The position numbers and the translations under genes were made by a program. From assembly GCA_036873755.1 (NCBI GenBank), contig JAVTVY010048011.1:169519-233518 (forward strand): a stretch of DNA of 64,000 nucleotides, in the 5' to 3' direction. Below, piece by piece: positions 2,123 through 63,897 of the stretch. The notes under the pieces are model-generated. The model was not told the origin of the DNA and made no database searches. It was given only the letters and a program-made list of their open reading frames with translations. Positions within the stretch are counted from its first letter, which is position 1, and each line of letters starts with the position of its first letter. The stretch comes from Hanleya hanleyi. Taxonomy: Eukaryota > Mollusca > Polyplacophora > Lepidopleurida > Hanleyidae.

Positions 2123-3490
2123 TTTTCCCCCGATGCCCGAAGGGCTAAAGGGGGATTATAGTATTGGAGTCCGCCTGTGCGTGCGCCCGTCTGTATTGCG
2201 AACAAATGATAGCTTGTGTGTCTTTTGCTACTGTTTTATATCCGTCCATCCTTTCGTCCGACTTCGTTTCCGGATAATAACTTATGGAAAACTAAACGGA
2301 TTTTATTCCAATTTGATGTGTGTGTACCTTGCCTCAAGCTCTCGCTTGGAATTGTTTTGTTTCCGGACAATAACTTTTGAAAAACTGAATGAATTATTTT
2401 CAAATTTGGTATGTGGGTACTTCTTCTCAAGATCTTGCTTGTGATTGTTTTCACGTTAATCCGCCTATAGATGTGAGCGTGTCGTGGCCGAAGTAGTTAG
2501 AGTGTTTGACTCTGACCCGGAGTGCTACAGCTGGCGTGGGTTCGCGCCTCGTCAGTGACCGCTTACATATATACACGCCTATTCACAAGGCGCTGGACTG
2601 ATTCGGTGTCCAGGGTAATATGGACTGATGGTGGAACTGGTTGCTACGCTAGACCTTCGCCAGCGGAGGCACTTGGGGAATAAAGTACCTGGGTGTCTTT
2701 CAGTGACCACTATATAAATCCACTCACAGTAGTACATCGCATACACCGCTAGGAAGCTCACATGGTTAGACTATCACAGCACTTTCAGGATAGTAGTTCG
2801 TCCAATTGTAGAATTGTATAAATGTTCACTTCACAGCACGATAGTTGAGCTATAAATGTTGAGTGGTTCCAATTGAATGTATATTAATATGTACTCCTAC
2901 GGAGGTGCTCCTATATAGAGGAGGGATTTACCTACTGAACTGAACTGAACTGAACTGATGGCGCCACGTAAGTTAAAATTTTGTTTCTAGACAATAACTT
3001 TAGAAAAACTCAACGGATTCTTCTCAAATTTGGAATGTGGGTACCTTGAACCTTGTGGGAACCTCGCCTTAAGATCTCGCTTGGGATCGTTTTTCACGCC
3101 GATCCTTTTCAGGTGGCGCCACTTGGGGGCAAAGTACAAATTCCATTTAAGGACAATAACTTTTGAAAACCTGAAAGGATTCTTTCCAAATTTGGTATGT
3201 GGGTAGGCCTATCTCTCCTCAAGATCTTGCTTGGGATTGTTTTTCGCGTTAATCCGCCTATAGGTGGCGCCGTCTTGGGCGGGGAGGGGGCAAGTTTAAA
3301 TTTTGTTTCTCGACAATGGCTTTAGGAAAACTGAACGGATTCTTTTCAAATCTGGTATGTGGGTACTTCGCCTGAAGATCTCCCTCGGGATTGTTTTTCA
3401 CGCCGATCCGCCTATAGGGGGAACCACCTTGGCGCAAAGTTGACTTTTGTATTAGGACAAATTCGGTAATTGTGGCCACCTCGCCACTGA
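2123..3490 (+). repeat. Tandem array of ~130-140 bp units
   Basis: Units share GGACAATAACTTTTGAAAAA, CTGAACGGATTCTTTTCAA, TTTGGTATGTGGGTAC, CAAGATCTCGCTTGGGATTG and CCGCCTATAGGTGGCGCC. Copies begin near 2,266, 2,360, 2,985, 3,145 and 3,305. The array starts beside GATGCCCGAAGGGC (2,131), a small hairpin resembling the termini of other elements in the window. A SINE interrupts it at 2,479-2,957. The reverse complement of the same unit forms the array at 13,860-14,770. Confidence 0.75.
2479..2957 (+). mobile_element. tRNA-derived SINE with (AACTG)n tail
   Basis: The head carries a pol III box A-like TGGCCGAAGTAGTTAGAGTG (about 2,485) and a box B-like GGGTTCGCGCC (about 2,539), at the spacing of a tRNA gene. 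The tail at 2,937-2,957 is four AACTG units. It interrupts a unit of the surrounding tandem array exactly between CCTATAG and ATGGCGCC, which gives both edges. It is a SINE head rather than a tRNA gene, because no acceptor-stem pairing is evident. Confidence 0.7.
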
Positions 3491-3639
3491 ATCTCACTTC
3501 GGATTGCTCTATATGGCGATTACTGAATCCTATGGTTCCAAGCCAAATCAATTGTTTCAATAACGTCGGGGAACTTCAACCGCTCGGGTTTTCATTCAGA
3601 TTGAATACATTATAAATGGCTATCGTCCAGAGTCAAGGG

Positions 3640-4020
3640 TTTTTTTCAAATGCGCAGCTTCACATTTCTCACTGGTTGAAAAACAGACCGCCGTGTGGGG
3701 CAAAATGGACCCCGTCCGGTCATCTTCGATGATGCCGAAAAGACATCATGATGTTCCAAAAATATGAAATCCGTATCGCTCCATATGATTTTCATTGTAA
3801 AGTCGTTAACTGGAGAACGATGTATCTCAGTCACGCTTTGATTGTGACTGTTCATATGAACATAATCAGAACCTTGAAGTACATGAGTTCATAAGGTCCC
3901 TAGCCCTGGGTATCGCCAAATTTTAGAAACATTGAGTGAAGGCGCTTGGTGATATAGTCCTGTTTTATAAGTTTTGCAATTATGCAATTATAATATTTTG
4001 TGACGTTGTTCAAACTCTTC
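3640..4020 (+). mobile_element. Element A copy (dispersed non-autonomous element)
   Basis: It contains the ordered segments GATGCCGAAAAGACATCATG, GAACGATGTATCTCAGTCAC, TTGAAGTACATGAGTTCAT, CCCTAGCCCTGG and GGCGCTTGGTGATATAG found in other copies. Better copies are at 13,120-13,600 (plus) and 29,955-30,535 (minus). No ORF belongs to it. The transposon class is unknown. Confidence 0.65.
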
Positions 4021-9342: not shown

Positions 9343-10320
9343 GGCTTTTCATTTCTATGCAGGACCTTACTCACTACGTTCGTTTTTTTACGGGTTCGGT
9401 CTCTGCAGCGGATTTATTTGTCCTGGTGCCGAGGACGTTATGCCGATCCCGACTCTGTCTCTATTTCCCTCGTTGCTGACTTCCTCCTTCATCTTCACCG
9501 GGATAGGAAGTTTCATATTAGCTCCATTGTAGGGTATGGATCTGCTCTGGCTAGGGTGTTACGTCTTACCTCTGGTACCGACATTAGCCTTAACGATTAT
9601 ATCTCTGCGCTTATTCGCGCCTTCGCCTTACAGTCGCGACGTACTCGCCTACTGTTACCGAAATGGGATATCGGTGTGGTTCTGTGTGCTTTGATTCGTC
9701 CGCCCTTTGAACCCTTTCTATCCGCTTCTCTAAAGCTGTGTCCTACAAGGCGGCTTTTCTCGCGGATTTTGCTTTGGCGTCTAGAGTGTCTAAACTTTTT
9801 CCTTTCGTTCCGTTCCGGAGTTTATCGCCAAAATGAGTCTGTTCGCTTAGGTCCGTGCGCTCAACGGTCGTACTCTATCCCTGCGTTTTCAGACTTCGTA
9901 CATGGGCTCGAAGACGACTCTTTGTTATGCCTTGTTCGAGCCATTCGCCACTATCTTACTCGTACCGATTCCGTTCGCGGCTCTCGGCGCCTGTTATTTC
10001 TGTCGTTTTTCGCCCGTCTGCAATGCATGACATTACGAAAAAATACCATTGACGCGTGGTTGAAGAAGACCATAAAATGGTCTTATCAATTGGCCATTGA
10101 CGCCTCCCCGCTACTGTATACTGCTTCTTCCCATGAGATTCGTGCCATCGCTACACATGGCCTTGATGGAAGAAATTGTCCCTCCATGACTTTGTCCAGT
10201 CTTGTGCCTGGACAGCAAACTCCACGTTCACAAATTTCTATCTGTGAGATATGTCGGTGCAATCAGATAGTGTGACCACGCTCGGGCCACTGGTGGCTAC
10301 CCAGCACGTGGTAAGTAATT
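9343..10320 (+). pseudogene. DIRS tyrosine recombinase, frame-disrupted
   Basis: A frame open from 9,343 to 10,275 has no ATG at its start. It encodes the N-terminal core-binding part (SISLVADFLLHLHRDRK, SSIVGYGSALARVLRLTSG, then PKWDIGVVLCALIRPPFEP), very like YRs of DIRS elements. Around 9,735-9,835 the better reading is in another frame (LASRVSKL), probably holding the first catalytic Arg. The main frame then resumes with the H-x2-R box (SSHEIRAIATH; His codon 10,132, Arg codon 10,141). The terminal box with the nucleophile (FTNFYL, Tyr codon 10,239-10,241) lies in a different frame and is followed directly by a TGA. The frame beyond it reads GPLVATQHVV, the usual DIRS C-terminus. At least two frameshifts and one nonsense change are therefore visible. 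The protein would integrate the circular DNA form without a staggered cut. Confidence 0.8.
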
Positions 10321-25580: not shown

Positions 25581-27131
25581 AATGGCATTGTTGAACTTGG
25601 CGAACCTATTTCAACATCGCAATGAAAAAGGAAGAAAGGTCATCATGTTATTGAAATGGACAACTGATATGTATTGAAAATGCGGTTTACAAGTTTATAC
25701 AAATTAAGACGTATAAAAACGGGGGTATTTGAATATTATGAAGCTTTATTTAAATAGTGTGTTATCGAGCGGAAAACTGGAGACTATTGGCCGTCATCAT
25801 AGACACGTTAGTGACGTTCAGAACATGACCAGGGAAGCCCAGGAGAAAAGGGAAATGAAAAGAGTCGAGTAGTCGTACCTGACAGACGCTGAGCATTGGC
25901 TCACATATAAGCTACACGATATGAAGTCGATATTCCGTCAAGCAATCGATATTCACCGGACCCCGTCTGCAAATACCTCATACTGTTACTGCGTGCGTCA
26001 GCGTGGCCGGGACACGGCATCATCGGCCTCGGTAAACTCTAATTCTTACAAAGACCTGGCCTTGCTGCTGGCGACGAAAGGAAAAGCTAGCCGCCAAGCT
26101 TAAGATCATTACACCCAAAGATCATTACCTCAAGTGGGAACAAACGGAGAGACGCGGATATCATTGATGATATAGCATGCATTGTCATACCATTCTTGGC
26201 ACAGACTGGCAGACGGACCACTGAATATGCGTGTATCTAAATTATTCTAACAGCCAAAGATCCCAAAGACGCAATATCCCAGGTAAATAACATCATTCTT
26301 GGTCTATGTTCAGCTTATATTTCCTATCGTTCTGTATTTTCCCCCGTCCTGTACCAGTAGAGATGAACGATTGCACATGTTTTCTCCGTCGGTGATGGAT
26401 AAATAAACACAGATCCTGTTTTTTTGTATGTATACAGTCATAACGCAATAAGAGGCATAATACACTTAGGCTGGACAATTCAAGCACGTGCTAGCAGTAT
26501 AAGCTTATTTCCTATTATTCATTCTTGGTGCAGATTGTTCCATAATTCCGCTTCACGGGGCATAGACAAGCACCCTGCATCTTGGACATAATCACAAATA
26601 CCTATTCTTTCTGGATTCGTTGTGAATAACAGTTTATAGATCTGGGAATACACTTTAGAAATGGTATTTGTCTGCACGGGGGACATATTAACAATTGTAC
26701 TGTATCCAACTGACTGAGATTATGGATTCAGTTGGTCATCCTGTCTTTACCATAATTGCACACTCTCCACAGCTGAGTGGTCGTTCTGACGCGATGCCTA
26801 GCCATCATAAGTTGCCATGCAGTCTTGCCTACTGACGTTGACATACGTCAAAGCTCTCTTTTAGCTCTTGACGCGTATCTAGGGCCTGATAGCTGGGCTT
26901 GTAAAAACCTGCATTTACACACATACCATCTTCGTACTTCAGTGATTTCGATTAGATGCAGAAGCATGGCTGGCTGGTGACTGTTTCGGCTGGTGGAACC
27001 CTGGCAGATTTCCCTGGAAACTGATGCTATTGTGATCAATTAACATCGCCAAGTGAACAGTCGAGGAGGCCAGGCTGGGTCCAAATTCGCCGTGCTGCAT
27101 GCATCTACAACCATAGATCATAATATATATC
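25580..27131. other. Upstream flank of the SLC16-like exon
   Basis: No repeat or other exon was recognised. The promoter or 5' untranslated exon of the downstream gene may lie here, but nothing diagnostic was seen. An in-frame TAG at 27,114 precedes the start codon. Confidence 0.4.
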
Positions 27132-27540
27132 ATGCCTCTCGTCACGATGCAGGAGGCTGCAGCACCCGGCGGTCTCACAAAAGGAGGGGCCATATTCAAG
27201 AAGGATATATGTCCGTTTTGCCAGAACTCCCCCGGGATGGGGTCTATGGGAGGAGACAGTAAGAACAGCAGCAGGGATAGTAGCAGAAGCACTCCGTCCC
27301 AAGGGAGTAGGGAGCTTGTGCCATCTCCTGCTAAACCCGCACGCAAGAATGACTTAAAACAGTCACAGTCCACGACAATCAGGATTAACTTTGGCGATTT
27401 CTACCCCGAAGGAGGCTGGGGCTGGGTGGTATGTGCTGCAGCAGGACTAGTCTATGTGTTGTGCCATGGATTTCACTTCAGTTATGGAGCTCTTTACCTA
27501 ATAATTGTCGGGGAATTCAAATCGGAGCTAGCTGATGCAG
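27132..27540 (+). CDS. Monocarboxylate transporter-like (SLC16 family), first coding exon
   Basis: SLC16 proteins are 12-helix major-facilitator carriers in the plasma membrane, many moving lactate, pyruvate or related monocarboxylates. This exon encodes a 91-residue cytosolic N-terminus rich in Ser (SKNSSRDSSRSTPSQGS). The family signature follows at residues 92-100 (PEGGWGWVV, matching [D/E]G[G/S][W/F][G/A]W) and then the first transmembrane helix (about 97-118, with an FSYGALYLIIVGEF continuation). ATG 27,132 is supported by an in-frame TAG 18 bp upstream; ATG 27,147 is an alternative. The frame breaks at GATGCAG|GTGAGT, a strong donor leaving phase 1 (one base of codon 137). No downstream exon encoding TM2 could be placed with confidence within the window, so the first intron is long or the gene is truncated here. 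The substrate cannot be told from this exon. Confidence 0.9.
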
Positions 27541-28814
27541 GTGAGTATTACCATTTTCCTTAACTCATATATTATGTAATATACCATGTAAAAGACCTTT
27601 TCTGCAAATACATCAGATAATGTACCGAAATGTCACTGAACTGAGCCCATATAGTTCATAATTTGCTACTATGCCGTTAAGATATATTAATATAAGTCTC
27701 GCCTCTTTCAACAACAGAAGCCATCAGTTGTCATTTGAAAGACCTGGCACGTGTTAGGGATGACAATACAGTCTGTTAACAATTACACCTAGCAGATGCA
27801 GGCCTATATCTTAGCGTATTGATGAGGCGACAGGTGAAAAATGAACACGTAAAATGAATGGTCAAATAGTTTGTCTAATGATGAAGAATATACAGAATTG
27901 TTAATACGGTCGAAGGATTGCCATGGCAACTGCCCTTTATCTGTTACAGCCACTAGCAATTTCTGATAGCCGCTTTTGAGCTATATACGCTGTCTATACT
28001 ACCTGAGAATCAGCTGCTAATTGCGGACTGCAAACGACACAAAGAGAAGCTGCCTATAACTTCATATGATTATCACCTGTGCCTACCTGGTTATGTCTTG
28101 TATTCTTGTATGCTGGTAACGATGTTACATTGGTTTAACAAGGTATTATAGCAAGGACCTCTATACCTAAAGTTAATCGTAATTAACAGTATTTAAGTTG
28201 AGGTAATTCTACAAGAGTTTAATCGAGATAATTAGCATCACACAATGTATTGTCAAAGAGACAATGTCGAAGAGCTATGCGACACCTCTGCATGGGTTTC
28301 CGTTGCTATGGAGACCATTTGGCTGCCTAATATTGCAGAGATAATTCTTCTAGATCGAATATCTAATGCAATCTCTTACCGTTATGTAATTTTCAAATAC
28401 TAGAACAATTTTTAAGAAAAGAAGCTTCCACATATACGTCTAAATACCAGTTTCGCCAATTTATTCAACATCCAAGAAAGCATTGAACATTGTTGAATGT
28501 TTGAGTGTATGCTGATATGATGCCTTTTTCAATTTTCTGAAAATACAGTTACGGTATATTCCAAAAGATCTTGCTCGGTGTAACGATAGGAGATGATTAC
28601 ATTTTTATAAATTACAGTTATACCTTCCTAGATTGCATTACGCCATATATGCAGACGATGTTTATGCAAAGACTCTTCGCATCAAGCATGACAGCGCCCA
28701 AATTCTGACAGGTTAATTCGAAATGCTAGTTGAAAACAACCAGGTTTTTCCATCAATTCCTCATTACTGGCAAACTTATATTCTTTTAGAAAAGTGAATT
28801 TCCGTCTTAGATTT
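27541..28814 (+). other. Presumed intron 1 of the SLC16-like gene, first part
   Basis: Starts with GTGAGT. AT-rich, with no coding or repeat content recognised. Confidence 0.6.
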
Positions 28815-54940: not shown

Positions 54941-55179
54941 CAAGTAACTCATCTGATTTTAATGGATGAGCATCGTGGGATTCTGATGGAGTACATGGCT
55001 CAACTTGATTGGGGTGAACATGACAAATGCAAGAATACCATCAAAAATAACCTGTAACTCAAGGCTATACCACAATTCTGGTTGTTATCTTGTCACGTGA
55101 TGACCATGTCATTAGTTCAACTCCTCCTGTTGATGACAGGGACAATGTTCAAGTGCAATGGTATGGATTAATACCAAAT

Positions 55180-56462
55180 CTGATGACCACAGCATGATGA
55201 CGAGCACAACATATGATGACCACAACATAATGATGACCACAACATGATGATGACCACATGACGAGGACCACATGACGATGACCACAACATGATGATGACC
55301 TCAACATGATGATGACCACAACATGATGATGACCATATGACGATGACCACAACATGATGATGACCACATGACGATGACCACAGCATGATGATGACCACAA
55401 CATGACGATGCCCATGCACAGCATGATGATGACCACATGACGATGACCACAGCATGATGATGACCACAACATGATGATGACCACAGCATGATGATGACCA
55501 CAACATGACGATGACCACAACATGACGATGACCACAGCATGATGATGATGACCACAACATGATGATGACCACAGCATGATGATGACCACAGCATGATGAT
55601 GACCACAACATGATGATGGCCACAACATGATGATGACCACAACATTATGGTGACCACAACATGATGATGACCACAACATGATGATGACCACAGCATGATG
55701 ATGACCACAACATGATGATGACCACAACATGATGATGACCACAGCATGATGATGACCACAGCATGATGATGACCACAGCATGATGATGACCACAACATGA
55801 TGATGACCACAACATTATGGTGACCACAACATGATGATGACCACAACATTATGGTGACCACAACATGATGATGACCACAACATGATGATGACCACAGCAT
55901 GATGATGACCACAACATGATGATGACCACAGCATGATGATGACCACAACATGATGATGACCACAGCATGATGATGACCACAACATGATGATGACCACAGC
56001 ATGATGATGACCACAGCATGATGATGACCACAGCATGATGATGACCACAGCATGATGATGACCACAACATTATGGTGACCACAGCATGATGATGACCACA
56101 GCATGATGATGACCACAGCATGATGATGACCACAACATTATGGTGACCACAACATGATGATGACCACAACATGATGATGACCACAGCATGATGATGACCA
56201 CAACATGACGATGGCCACAGCATGATGATGACCACAGCATGATGATGACAACAACATGATGATGACCACAACATGACGATGACCACAGCATGATGATGAC
56301 CACAACATGATGATGACCACAACATGACGATGACCACAGCATGATGATGACCACAGCATGATGATGACCACAACATGACGATGACCACAACATGACGATG
56401 ACCACAACATGATGATGACCACAGCAGGATGACGACCACAGCAGGATGATGACCACAACATG
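55180..56462 (-). repeat. Satellite of a 17 bp unit (CATGATGATGACCACAA), ~1.3 kb
   Basis: About 75 copies, alternating GACCACAA and GACCACAG versions, with occasional insertions or deletions. On the minus strand no frame contains a stop, so long overlapping frames (up to 271 codons) arise. Because 17 is not a multiple of 3, each frame encodes the same 17-residue repeat (VIIMLWSSSCCGHHHAV type). I regard them as non-genic. Confidence 0.95.
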
Positions 56463-56985
56463 AATTAATGGTCCGGAGGATACACCATATGCCCTAACAC
56501 CGTTCATGGTGTTAGCCAGCATCATTATTCGGTGTAAAAACATGCAATCATCTCGCCTCGTTTGATGATGTGTGAACCTGAGAGAACTTCACGCAATAAT
56601 GTGCCTCACAGCGTACGTTAAAACTTAGAGCGAATACAGTTGTGTTACCAAGAATCAAACACTCACACGTGCATGTTTACCCGTATGTATTAGATGATAT
56701 CAGGTTGTCTTTATCATTCTAGCGTGTGTTGCTAGCATATCGAGGCGTTACCATGACGACCAAGAGAATTGTTTTGATCTCATTTCAAGAAAGTTATTTA
56801 CCAGCCTTGTTGTGTGTCTGTCACATGGACGACCACAGACATCGCCTTCCTTTGCATGATAATTAATATGTGTACGGTATATGTCAGCTATACATCACGA
56901 ATTATGGCATCTATAAGAACGAAATTGATTAATAGATTCACATCACGAAAACATACTTGCTTGCAAGATACTGGTATGATGTGTA
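56463..56985. other. No gene recognised
   Basis: Nothing recognised. Confidence 0.4.
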
Positions 56986-58283: not shown

Positions 58284-59290
58284 CGGTTTTCACTGCGCAT
58301 GCGCAGAAATTATTTTGTGGGCGTGCGCATGCGTGAGTTTATGTTAATGAGTGGGCGTGGCCTTTTATGCAAATGAGGTCATTGGGTGCATTGGGTATAT
58401 TCAAGATGGCGGCTTGTTTTTTCTAGGTTAGGGTGGTCGGCTTCAAGATGGCGGCCAATTGCACTTGTTTGACCCTTCATTTGCATATTTTCAAGATGGC
58501 GGCCTGTTTTTTCTAGGTTAGGGGTGGTCGGATTCAAGATGGCGGCCTGTTTTTGTAGGTGCGGACACTTGCACTTGTTTCGCGCATCATTTGCATATTT
58601 TCAAGATGGCGGCCTGTTTTTTCTAGGTTAGGGGTGGTCGGATTCAAGATGGCGGCCTGTTTTTTTGTAGGTCAAGGTCAATTGCACTTGTTTCGCTCGT
58701 CCTCATTTGCATATTTTCAAGATGGAGGCTTGTTTTTTCTAGGTTAGGGGTGGTCGGTTTCAAGATGGCGGCCTGTTGTCCCCCGTTTTATGCAAATGAG
58801 GTCATTGGGTTCATTGGGTATATTCAAGATGGCGGCTTGTTTTTTCTAGGTTAGGGGTGGTCGGCTTCAAGATGGCGGCCAATTGCACTTGTTTCACCCT
58901 TCATTTGCATATTTTCAAGATGGCGGCCTGTTTTTTCTAGGTTAGGGGTGGTCGGATTCAAGATGGCGGCCTGTTTTTGTAGGTGCGTACACGTGCACTT
59001 GTTTCACCCTTCATTTGCATATTTTCAAGATGGCGGCCTGTTTTTTCTAGGTTAGGGGTGGTCGGATTCAAGATGGCGGCCTGTTTTTGTAGGGCGGTCA
59101 ATTGCACTTGTTTCGCTCGTCCTCATTTGCATATTTTCAAGATGGCGGCCTTTTTTCTAGGTTAGGGGTGGTCGGTTTCAAGATGGCGGCCTGTTGTCCC
59201 CCTGAAAATATGCAAATGAGGTCTCTGGGTTTTTCCCCACTGTTTTCAAGATGGCGGCCTGTTTTTTGTAGGTTAGGGGTTTGATACCTC
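58284..59290 (+). repeat. Array of YY1-like, octamer and NRF1-like motifs
   Basis: Degenerate ~110-130 bp units, each with CAAGATGGCGGCCTGTTTTT (YY1 consensus AAGATGGCGGC), a CTAGGTTAGGGGTGGTCGG segment, and CATTTGCATATTTTCAAGAT or ATGCAAATGAGGTCATTGGG (the octamer ATGCAAAT in either orientation). About 16 YY1-like sites and 9 octamers were counted. The left edge has TGCGCATGCGCA (58,285-58,296, a perfect NRF1 palindrome). Frames reading FAYFQDGGLF are array artefacts. Isolated further sites lie at 60,302-60,490. Confidence 0.85.
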
Positions 59291-59861: not shown

Positions 59862-60164
59862 TTAAGCGCGGAATATTCGCTTCACCCCTCCTACATGTTT
59901 TCGACATATGGGACATCTTATCTTGAAATGCACCTCTCCGGCGTCAACGCATCGGCATAGGGCTCCTTCACACGTCAGTTGGATCCAGCAATCCTTGCAC
60001 ATACACAGATGTCCACAGGGTAGAACCGCGTATAAGCTTTCTTCATTCGTGCAGATACTACATTGTTTGATTTTTTCTTCATTATGTCGTAGTTTCTTTT
60101 GTCTGGCAATTTCCTCTTCCATTCCCGTCATTGTGGTCTCCATTCCCAACATCGCTCCCCTCAT
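59862..60164 (-). CDS. Coiled-coil RING-HC protein of the Polinton-like element
   Basis: From ATG 60,164 the 100-residue product has a Glu/Met/Lys-rich helical start (about 1-33, heptad-like) and a C3HC4 RING: CSIC (35-38), LPCGHLCMCKDC, and CPIC near the end (RCPICRKHV). RING-HC proteins are zinc-binding E3 ubiquitin ligases, and this form (PCGHxCxCxxC) is closest to those at the C-terminus of IAP-type proteins. The reading frame is open for a further 36 codons upstream (to a stop at 60,273-60,275), and these also look like coiled coil (TETRARCRHTDEISRLNEQI), but they contain no ATG. The real start may therefore be upstream (non-AUG or after splicing). A TATA box is at 60,273-60,281. Two tiny upstream frames begin at 60,213 and 60,199. 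The gene is divergent from the PC4-like and integrase genes. Confidence 0.75.
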   Translation of the reverse strand: MRGAMLGMETTMTGMEEEIARQKKLRHNEEKIKQCSICTNEESLYAVLPCGHLCMCKDCWIQLTCEGALCRCVDAGEVHFKIRCPICRKHVGGVKRIFRA

Positions 60165-61485: not shown

Positions 61486-62187
61486 ATGGCATCGCGGGGC
61501 AAAGAGCTCGCGTTCTTTCAAGTGACGTCTAAGGTGCTTCTTAGCGTATATGAACATGAATTACACCTTATCGAGGAACACCCGATCGAAGTGAAATTAA
61601 TTTTAAGCCTTGACGGGTGGACACAATTGACACGTGTTTTACAAGCCAAAGAACCCGAAGTCGATTTTTTACCTGTCGGTGTGGATGTGTACCTGCGGCG
61701 GAGTAGAGAGAAATCATTTTTTCCCCGGTTAGAACAGTGCGGTGGTCACGGAATTGTACTTTGGCCAGCATTATGGGCGGCGCTGAAAACTATCATTAGC
61801 CAAGTTGACGCCGTACTCTATCCGGACATCCAATCCACCATCATAACCCGTACACTCACCTCGGATTGTACCCTAATAATATATCCTGATCGCATCGATC
61901 TCATTGCCGATGATTCCCGCTGTTGGTGCGTCCCAGAGCCCGCCCGTGTCTCTTTATCTTCCGAAGGCTGGACGACCTTGAAACGTGTGTTATTCGGTCA
62001 TTTGAATGGAAATACTATCTACCTGGATCACGATGTATACATTTTTCGCGGCCCTTTTTTTGCCCGATTGATCTCTCTCAAACGAGGCGGATTTACACTC
62101 GATCCCGAACTATGGACGGCTTTACAAAAAATAGTTCCTGTGGTGGATAAAGTATTTTCTGCACACGACCCGCCTCTCACAGAATAG
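61486..62187 (+). CDS. Tandem PC4-like repeat protein of the Polinton-like element
   Basis: I chose ATG 61,486 (MASRGKEL...), giving 233 residues. An in-frame ATG at 61,450 would add MCVGLIFLSFFS, a possible signal-like stretch, but it lies upstream of the predicted transcription start. The protein is two copies of a ~100-residue unit: LSLDGWTQLTRVL...VYLRR...LWPALWAALKTIISQVDAVL and VSLSSEGWTTLKRVL...VYIFRG...FTLDPELWTALQKIVPVVD. The end of each unit resembles the C-terminal strand-helix of transcriptional coactivator PC4 (ISLNPEQWSQLKEQI type), a fold that binds single-stranded DNA. The role in DNA replication or transcription is therefore an inference. No known catalytic residues. The stop codon (62,185-62,187) abuts the TATA box of the next gene. 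Confidence 0.75.
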   Translation: MASRGKELAFFQVTSKVLLSVYEHELHLIEEHPIEVKLILSLDGWTQLTRVLQAKEPEVDFLPVGVDVYLRRSREKSFFPRLEQCGGHGIVLWPALWAALKTIISQVDAVLYPDIQSTIITRTLTSDCTLIIYPDRIDLIADDSRCWCVPEPARVSLSSEGWTTLKRVLFGHLNGNTIYLDHDVYIFRGPFFARLISLKRGGFTLDPELWTALQKIVPVVDKVFSAHDPPLTE

Positions 62188-62225
62188 TATAAATACCAGG
62201 GGAAGAGACAGAGTGTGTATCATTT
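62188..62225 (+). promoter_or_regulatory. Core promoter of the second PC4-like gene
   Basis: TATAAATA at 62,188-62,195 starts on the base after the preceding stop codon. TCATTT at 62,220 is 32 bp downstream. ATG 62,247 follows after 27 bp. Confidence 0.65.
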
Positions 62226-62246
62226 GGACATTGAGAGCAAGCAAGC

Positions 62247-62900
62247 ATGTCGTTTCCACTACGTGCCATTTTGCCTCTTACACACAGTGTGCGCTTATAC
62301 GTGTATGCAGATAAAGTCAAACTGGCGGAAGACCATCTAGCTATTTACTGGACCCCCGCAGAAATGTTATGGAATCCCGTGACACTAGAGCGTGATGGGT
62401 GGAATAAGTTGAGACGGGTATTGCGCGGGGAATTGGACGGAGAGCTCATCCATCTGGATAATGCCATGTACCTCTATACCCTATCCTCCCACCGCATACG
62501 TCTAGGCCGGTACAAAGATGCGCGCAGTATCAGCATAACTCTCTCTGTGTTTGACGCCTTGAAGAAAATAATGCCTATTGTCGATCAGTTAATGTCACCG
62601 GACGATCGATCCCCTCAGCAATTAGCGTGGGTTCGTGCTACAGAAGAGGCGTTCCCTGAACCGGGTGCAAGACTAGCAAAATTTTGTTTCTGTAAGACTA
62701 CTACAGCCGAGAAAAAAAGGCCTATATGTGGAAAATGCAGAGCGGCTAGATGGTTAGTATCACCCTGGGACGAAGAGGAGACGGACGGGGCGAACTCAGT
62801 ATCACCCCGGGAAGAGATCGACTCACCTGTGACGGAGGCCAACGAAGTGTGTGATGCGGCGGCAGTCGAGGAACAAGGAGATTCACCAAGTATTAACTGA
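62247..62900 (+). CDS. PC4-like repeat protein with C-terminal zinc motif
   Basis: 217 residues. Residues about 12-116 are a third copy of the repeat of the preceding gene: VRLYVYADKVKLAED, VTLERDGWNKLRRVLRGEL, IHLDNAMYLYTL, ITLSVFDALKKIMPIVDQLM. C147-x-C149-x11-C161-x2-C164 (CFC...CGKC) looks like a small zinc ribbon. An acidic, Ser-rich tail follows (DEEETDG, PREEIDSP), suggesting a linker or partner-binding region. The 3' 47 bases overlap the integrase frame in another phase. Probably an ssDNA-binding or transcription factor of the element, by analogy with PC4; not proven. Paralogous to the previous gene, presumably by duplication. Confidence 0.75.
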   Translation: MSFPLRAILPLTHSVRLYVYADKVKLAEDHLAIYWTPAEMLWNPVTLERDGWNKLRRVLRGELDGELIHLDNAMYLYTLSSHRIRLGRYKDARSISITLSVFDALKKIMPIVDQLMSPDDRSPQQLAWVRATEEAFPEPGARLAKFCFCKTTTAEKKRPICGKCRAARWLVSPWDEEETDGANSVSPREEIDSPVTEANEVCDAAAVEEQGDSPSIN

Positions 62901-63897
62901 TTTGTATTATAATCCAACGAGTGCAGCTGCCTATAGTGGTGTGGGGGCATTGACTCGAGCGGCCCAAGGCATCAGTCGAAGTGAAGTTCGAGACTGGTTA
63001 AAAACCCAAGATACGTACAGTTTACATCGAGCTGTCCGACGTCATTTTCGTCGTAACCGAGTCATTGTGGGAGGCATCGACGCGCAATGGCAGGCGGATT
63101 TGGTCGACATGAGTCGATTTGCACCTGACAATAATGGAAATCGATACATATTGACCTGTATCGATATTCTATCGAAATATGCCTGGGTCCTACCCGTGCG
63201 TACCAAAACAGGAGAGAATCTCATAGCCGTGTTTCAGCAGATTTTCAAGACGGGACGCAAACCTCTTTATTTACAAACAGATGAAGGCACAGAATTTCTC
63301 AACCGACCCTTTCAAGCCTTTCTTAAGAAAAAGAAGGTATTTTTTTTTCACACGTACAATGAGACGAAAGCATCGGTAGTGGAACGCTTTAATCGCACCT
63401 TCAAAGGACGCATGTACAAATATTTTACGGCTCAAAACACGCGACGCTACCTGGATGTACTTCCTCAACTGGTACAAGGCTACAATAGGGCCTATCATCG
63501 CAGTATCCAGCGAGCGCCCCGTACTGTGACAGAAGGGAACGAACATCAAGTCCGTGCTACGCTGTACTCCTCCTCCAGTGCACCCCTGACGGCACCCCGT
63601 TACAAACGGAGAGATACGGTGCGGATCAGTAAAGTGAAAGGCCAATTTGAGAAAGGCTATTTACCGAACTGGAGTGACGAACACTTTGTCATCGTGCGCC
63701 ATAAACCTCGACAACCCCACGTCTATCAACTGGAAGATCTACAAGGCGAGAGACTGCAAGGCACGTTTTACGAGGCAGAATTACAACCCATAGTGAAAAC
63801 ACCGAAAGACTACGGTGGAAAAGATTTTGAAAACGGAACGTCGACGTGGGATTCCCTATCATTTCGTCAAATGGCAAGGCTGGCCTCGTTCCTTTAA
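62854..63897 (+). CDS. Polinton/Maverick-type rve integrase
   Basis: DDE integrase that inserts the element's linear DNA into chromosomes. From ATG 62,854 the product is 347 residues. Numbering here counts from the GTG at 62,851. Features in order: an N-terminal helical region with LYYNPTSAAAYSGVGALTRA and SRSEVRDWLKTQDTYSLHR, the usual Polinton integrase N-terminus; the catalytic core with D83 (WQADLVDM), D144 (LQTDEGTEF) and E178 (KASVVERFNRTF); and a C-terminal SH3/chromo-like part (RRDTVRISKVKGQFEKGYLP, NWSDEHF, GTFYEAELQPI). Length and order match intact family members, and no stop or frameshift is visible. It starts inside the 3' end of the preceding gene (+1 phase relative to it) and has no TATA of its own, so it may be made from the same mRNA by leaky initiation or frameshifting. 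Retroviral or Ginger-type integrases are less likely because of the N-terminus. Confidence 0.92.
   Translation: MRRQSRNKEIHQVLTDLYYNPTSAAAYSGVGALTRAAQGISRSEVRDWLKTQDTYSLHRAVRRHFRRNRVIVGGIDAQWQADLVDMSRFAPDNNGNRYILTCIDILSKYAWVLPVRTKTGENLIAVFQQIFKTGRKPLYLQTDEGTEFLNRPFQAFLKKKKVFFFHTYNETKASVVERFNRTFKGRMYKYFTAQNTRRYLDVLPQLVQGYNRAYHRSIQRAPRTVTEGNEHQVRATLYSSSSAPLTAPRYKRRDTVRISKVKGQFEKGYLPNWSDEHFVIVRHKPRQPHVYQLEDLQGERLQGTFYEAELQPIVKTPKDYGGKDFENGTSTWDSLSFRQMARLASFL

Follow-up and report, generated by a model that had tools for sequence, protein, structure and literature searches.

A chain of PC4 consists of one half made up of four β-strands and a helix (a β4-α half), and the Whirly and MRP1/MRP2 proteins are organellar proteins of plants and kinetoplastids. 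Protein-primed replication displaces a strand, and adenovirus and phi29 cover such strands with dedicated single-stranded DNA (ssDNA)-binding proteins. PUR domains are presented, in the available part of PMC7990775, as members of the PC4-like family which bind DNA and RNA and whose wedge can unwind double strands. Vertebrate Mavericks, according to the available portion of PMC8097293, contain accessory regions in which diverse open reading frames (ORFs) flank the core modules. The two genes described here, P1 and P2, likewise lie in the accessory region beside the core genes of a Polinton, in the chiton Hanleya hanleyi. They were found in a stretch of 64,000 nucleotides of contig JAVTVY010048011.1, hereafter the window, to which all coordinates refer. 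Both genes are built from one repeated unit, recur directly before Polinton integrases and are predicted to encode PC4-like domains of the PUR type.

Both ORFs were confirmed at the places given by an earlier, sequence-only reading of this DNA. P1 (61486–62187, + strand) encodes 233 residues and comprises unit A (61486–61839, residues 1–118) and unit B (61840–62184, residues 119–233), the latter with a predicted β4-α-β4-α fold of the PUR/Whirly type. P2 (62247–62900) is on the same strand and encodes 217 residues: a single unit, C (62247–62621, residues ~1–121, with an aligned stretch that extends to 125), is followed by a tail that is acidic and holds a zinc-like motif. The same reading had claimed three copies of one unit, two in P1 and one in P2, and this is upheld by pairwise Smith–Waterman scores of 103 for A–B, 83 for A–C and 133 for B–C, which far exceed the shuffle maxima of 57, 55 and 48 (n = 2000). 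The length of ~100 residues ascribed to the unit was an underestimate: the units measure ~115–125. In a three-way alignment of A, B and C, identity to unit B is 31% and 34%, and 18 columns are invariant, including those of G-W...R-V-L and A-L..I...V-D. The similarity of the three units in these alignments is far greater than chance would produce.

The assignment of the two genes to a Polinton is also sustained, as the adjoining ORF (62854–63897, +), whose first 47 bases are shared with P2, encodes a Polinton-type rve integrase with the chromodomain out of frame in this copy. The host genome (2.48 Gb in 52,793 contigs) harbours at least 150 copies of P1, 86–100% identical and with an internal stop in 4 of the 150 listed, and at least 150 copies of P2, roughly a third of those listed being interrupted by a stop. 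Within the window's family 26 distinct places, the window included, were read out of the 150 listed. P2 follows P1 in all 26, and the integrase comes directly after the pair in each of the 25 where the contig extends to it. Other families were reached with a chiton integrase 59% identical to that of the window as the query, which yielded 111 places, of which 20 were fetched: in 20/20 the unit genes, with 1 to 4 units, are located directly before the integrase on the same strand. Recurrence next to integrases, which the sequence-only reading had suggested looking for, is thus found in both sets. These 20 places and 20 of the window's family were chosen non-randomly, for spread and flank, and one other-family place was skipped for its short flank. 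A host gene family without linkage to the element is ruled out, since a Polinton integrase adjoins every place that was fetched and readable.

The most frequent arrangement in the other families is that of the window, a two-unit gene and a single-unit gene (10/20, some frame-broken or cut). In the remainder, the two-unit gene is joined by two single-unit genes at three places and stands alone at one; the other six lack it and carry either two single-unit genes (four places) or one (two places). Unit B of the other families is 67–77% identical to unit B of the window, to which the window's own units A and C are 33% and 31% identical. As unit B is closer across families than to A or C, the duplication of the unit would be older than the split of these integrase families.

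In VIA-align the models predicted for units B and C agree most closely with the PC4-like/PUR/Whirly superfamily, and better than with unrelated folds. Foldseek gives E-values >0.001 for the same models and, in its own order, ranks other folds first. In both units the two β4-α halves are predicted to be paired as one domain. These models suggest that the whole unit, not merely its end, has a PC4-like fold, and that the unit corresponds to a double half of PUR type instead of a single PC4 subunit. The sequence-only reading had likened the end of the unit to PC4 and had proposed a search for a PC4 fold in all three copies. Both ideas stand in part: the superfamily is the best match for the predicted models of B and C, the two units modelled, and human PC4 comes first in a search of the PDB with a profile of the second half (E 0.15–0.18 or 0.7–0.8, below significance), but the predicted fold spans the entire unit. 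Across the profile searches PC4 has an E of 0.15–1.3 where it is listed, and one further search came out without PC4. Like PC4/Sub1, the unit ends in a strand and helix with the pattern G-x-x-L-x-P-x-x-W-x-x-L; unlike PC4/Sub1, each unit fuses two halves. An internal duplication of the half-unit was not seen in sequence with a shallow alignment and gave a weak signal with a deeper one, for which filtering at 85% identity cut the 49 extracted units to 27. Of these, 26 were used, some of them trimmed, together with six from the window's family, giving the 32 rows of alignment A7; in a later version (A8) one row of A7 was omitted.

Repeats I–II of Pur-alpha (PURA) are only 9–14% identical to the units in these alignments and, unlike Pur-alpha, the units are encoded by a mobile element, are divided between two genes (two in the first, one in the other) and have no Pfam match. 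Whirly and MRP1/MRP2 show no sequence match to the units. As single sequences, P1 and P2 retrieved nothing at E up to 0.001 among 5.8 billion proteins, no Pfam family at E up to 1 and no PHROGs family. The PurA profile (PF04845) matched neither P1 nor P2 (E up to 1) nor any of 17 units (E up to 5), the PC4 family profile (PF02229) matched none of P1, P2 and the single units, and Pfam scans of single units gave chance rows only (DUF6085, E 0.14; LisH_2, E 4.8). Among PDB sequences P1 had no match and P2 a single chance row (E 1.2). Scans of viral_contigs provided no confirmed relative, whether the query was a unit alignment, the ATPase of the element or the integrase (its protein, a motif and an alignment).

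By analogy, the most likely function of P1 and P2 is nucleic-acid binding, probably to single strands, during replication. Each unit (P1 has two, P2 one) would contribute two β4-α halves, whose curved sheets may hold single-stranded or melted nucleic acid as in Pur-alpha, Whirly and PC4; P1 and P2 could then cover or open the single strands that would arise as the presumed protein-primed DNA polymerase of the element copies by strand displacement. A role in replication is favoured because PUR domains bind DNA and RNA and because protein-primed replication displaces a strand. We place at about even odds the full reading, in which P1 and P2 are element proteins composed of PUR/Whirly-type PC4-like modules that serve single-strand binding in replication. 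Two observations weigh against it. P1 is slightly acidic (isoelectric point 5.8; that of unit C is 9.0), and 12 integrase loci of other origin yielded no copy of the unit, which is weak evidence, several of these contigs being short.

Some features would also suit a cofactor role in transcription comparable to that of PC4 or of the PC4-like factors of phages, exerted at the promoters of the element and not in replication. The second half of the unit is closest in sequence to PC4, which is a cofactor of Pol II; between the two genes, immediately before P2, a TATA-like stretch (62188–62195, +) recognized by eye may be a promoter of P2's own; the BFVD rows include a putative transcription factor that is T4 y05I-like (E 0.015); and families differ in the number of units. 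Pur-alpha and MRP, however, are nearer in fold and mainly bind ssDNA or RNA, and a cofactor role appears unlikely.

Constraint was estimated as the ratio of nonsynonymous to synonymous change (dN/dS) on full-length, stop-free copies only, which biases towards constraint. The samples were 26 places for P1 (two duplicate places removed; 25 distinct), 9 for P2 (8 distinct) and 11 for residues 1–320 of the integrase. The median is 0.21 for P1 (unit A 0.20, unit B 0.21), 0.54 for P2 (unit C 0.43, zinc-motif linker 0.85, tail 0.55) and 0.14 for the integrase. P1 is under purifying selection, and the units are kept as proteins. The faster evolution of P2, with its nearly neutral linker, would be expected if the modules bound RNA or host factors, for example against silencing, and the duplication reflected a contest with the host; the variable number of units, from 1 to 4, the acidity of P1 and the apparent restriction to one lineage point the same way. 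MRP binds RNA. So does Pur-alpha, as stated in the accessible part of PMC7990775. The strong constraint on P1 is nevertheless unlike that of a typical arms-race protein, and we regard such an RNA-binding or antagonist role as improbable.

The acidity of P1 would equally agree with proteins that have kept the PUR/PC4 fold as a scaffold only and work through protein–protein contact, for instance by meeting the adjacent integrase or as part of the particle. Their position directly before the integrase is constant, and the fold-comparison tool itself warns that a shared fold shows no function. This seems highly doubtful, given that PC4-like domains are described as nucleic-acid binders in the part of PMC7990775 available.

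Single-strand binding in replication, the preferred reading, would have wider implications. The protein-primed polymerase of Polintons should expose long single strands, and the published gene lists, as far as their accessible text goes, name no single-strand-binding protein. A constrained, integrase-linked, multi-copy protein with a predicted Pur-alpha/PC4 fold is a concrete candidate for this role in at least one lineage. It is tentatively conceivable that an animal Polinton lineage assembled single-strand-binding machinery of its own out of PUR-type domains in tandem, 1–4 units per element, which cover the displaced strand; such machinery would be the counterpart of the adenovirus DNA-binding protein, derived from an unrelated fold. 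It would also exemplify a nucleic-acid-binding module multiplied within a mobile element, a gene with two copies being followed by one or two more.

Literature searches on Polintons with PC4 or Whirly, or on a PUR domain with a DNA virus, returned no report. Those on Polintons and ssDNA-binding proteins found no such protein described in Polintons in the text accessible. The word PC4 is absent from the accessible main text of the adintovirus/Polinton papers PMC11071296, PMC11071308 and PMC4028283, and the accessible literature on Polinton/Maverick accessory genes names no PC4-like or PUR-like product. To this extent the view that the layout has no described Polinton or adintovirus counterpart is borne out: the fold superfamily and the type of element are known, and their combination with tandem units of variable number was not found described in these partial texts.

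The unit genes appear to be an accessory set of one lineage and not a product that all Polintons share. The best unit matches in the 12 outside loci (E 0.04 and E 0.11) both fall in one ORF on the strand opposite to that of the integrase and are not credible. These 12 Polinton-type integrase loci, L029–L040, sit in assemblies labelled bacterial and are probably host or eukaryote contamination.

The CxC-x11-CxxC motif of P2 (62685–62738, +) is present as the sequence-only reading had it, but is not general to the system. Among the nine full-length P2 copies in the window's family that contain no stop (8/9 sequence-distinct), eight retain it with a spacer of 11 or 13, whereas a search with one spacing pattern recovered it in 0/26 single-unit ORFs of other families, three of which have only 139–142 residues and may lack the tail. 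On this count a zinc finger is rejected as a core component. The region around the motif, residues 122–170, is almost neutral, with a pooled ratio of nonsynonymous to synonymous differences (pN/pS) of 0.94.

The end of the window is the end of the contig, and only the left arm of the element (P1, P2 and integrase, all +) is contained in it. The integrase of this copy matches Pfam rve only; a different copy encodes a full integrase, with rve and Chromo in frame and both over the Pfam cut-off, so intact integrase copies exist. The integrase has 3312 homologues in the protein collection at E up to 1e-5, the best listed being from the chiton Liolophura sinensis (69% identity), and a chromodomain is present in most of the 120 listed of these 3312. 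In some copies P2 and the integrase form one continuous open frame (in L025, at 2272–3957 of that locus), and a long frame is also listed for L015. To the right of the full rve and Chromo integrase lie a short ORF, an ATPase with a P-loop whose matches to Adeno_IVa2 and Pox_A32 are weak and below the Pfam cut-off, and further ORFs which resemble Polinton capsid genes by eye and have no Pfam match over the cut-off. By eye, the integrase precedes the ATPase in L010 and L025, and the ATPase precedes the integrase in L029, L032, L033 and L039, which are of other origin.

A third copy has, on the opposite strand and 11.5–12.4 kb to the right of where P1 starts, an ORF that is similar to the beginning of a PolB ORF (88 columns, 42%, E 3e-18); the matched ORF carries DNA_pol_B_2 over the cut-off, and the PolB-like ORF of the third copy is itself without a Pfam match. 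A minisatellite of ~110 bp (58400–59280, +) lies to the left of P1 and P2. Its motif also occurs, inverted, beyond the PolB-like ORF of the third copy (8 matches in L061 vs 16 in the window), and the minisatellite therefore probably marks the inverted terminal region of the element. The element is read as a Polinton with inverted ends, its termini being seen from two different copies and the ends being approximate. Homology among copies begins at ~61400 in most and at ~60258 in a subset. Between the left minisatellite and P1, a RING-finger ORF (59862–60164, −; zf-C3HC4_3, E 5.4e-09) is probably another accessory gene, inside the left arm; L044 and L054 have weak RING matches, also to the left of the unit genes.

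Elsewhere in the window, three further ORFs scanned against Pfam gave no family. An open frame at 27117–27563 (+) has by eye a monocarboxylate-transporter-like exon, and one of 310 residues at 9343–10275 (+) looks like the tyrosine recombinase of a DIRS-type retroelement, both without a Pfam match. A long run of short tandem repeats at 55149–56543 (−) is open in several minus-strand frames.
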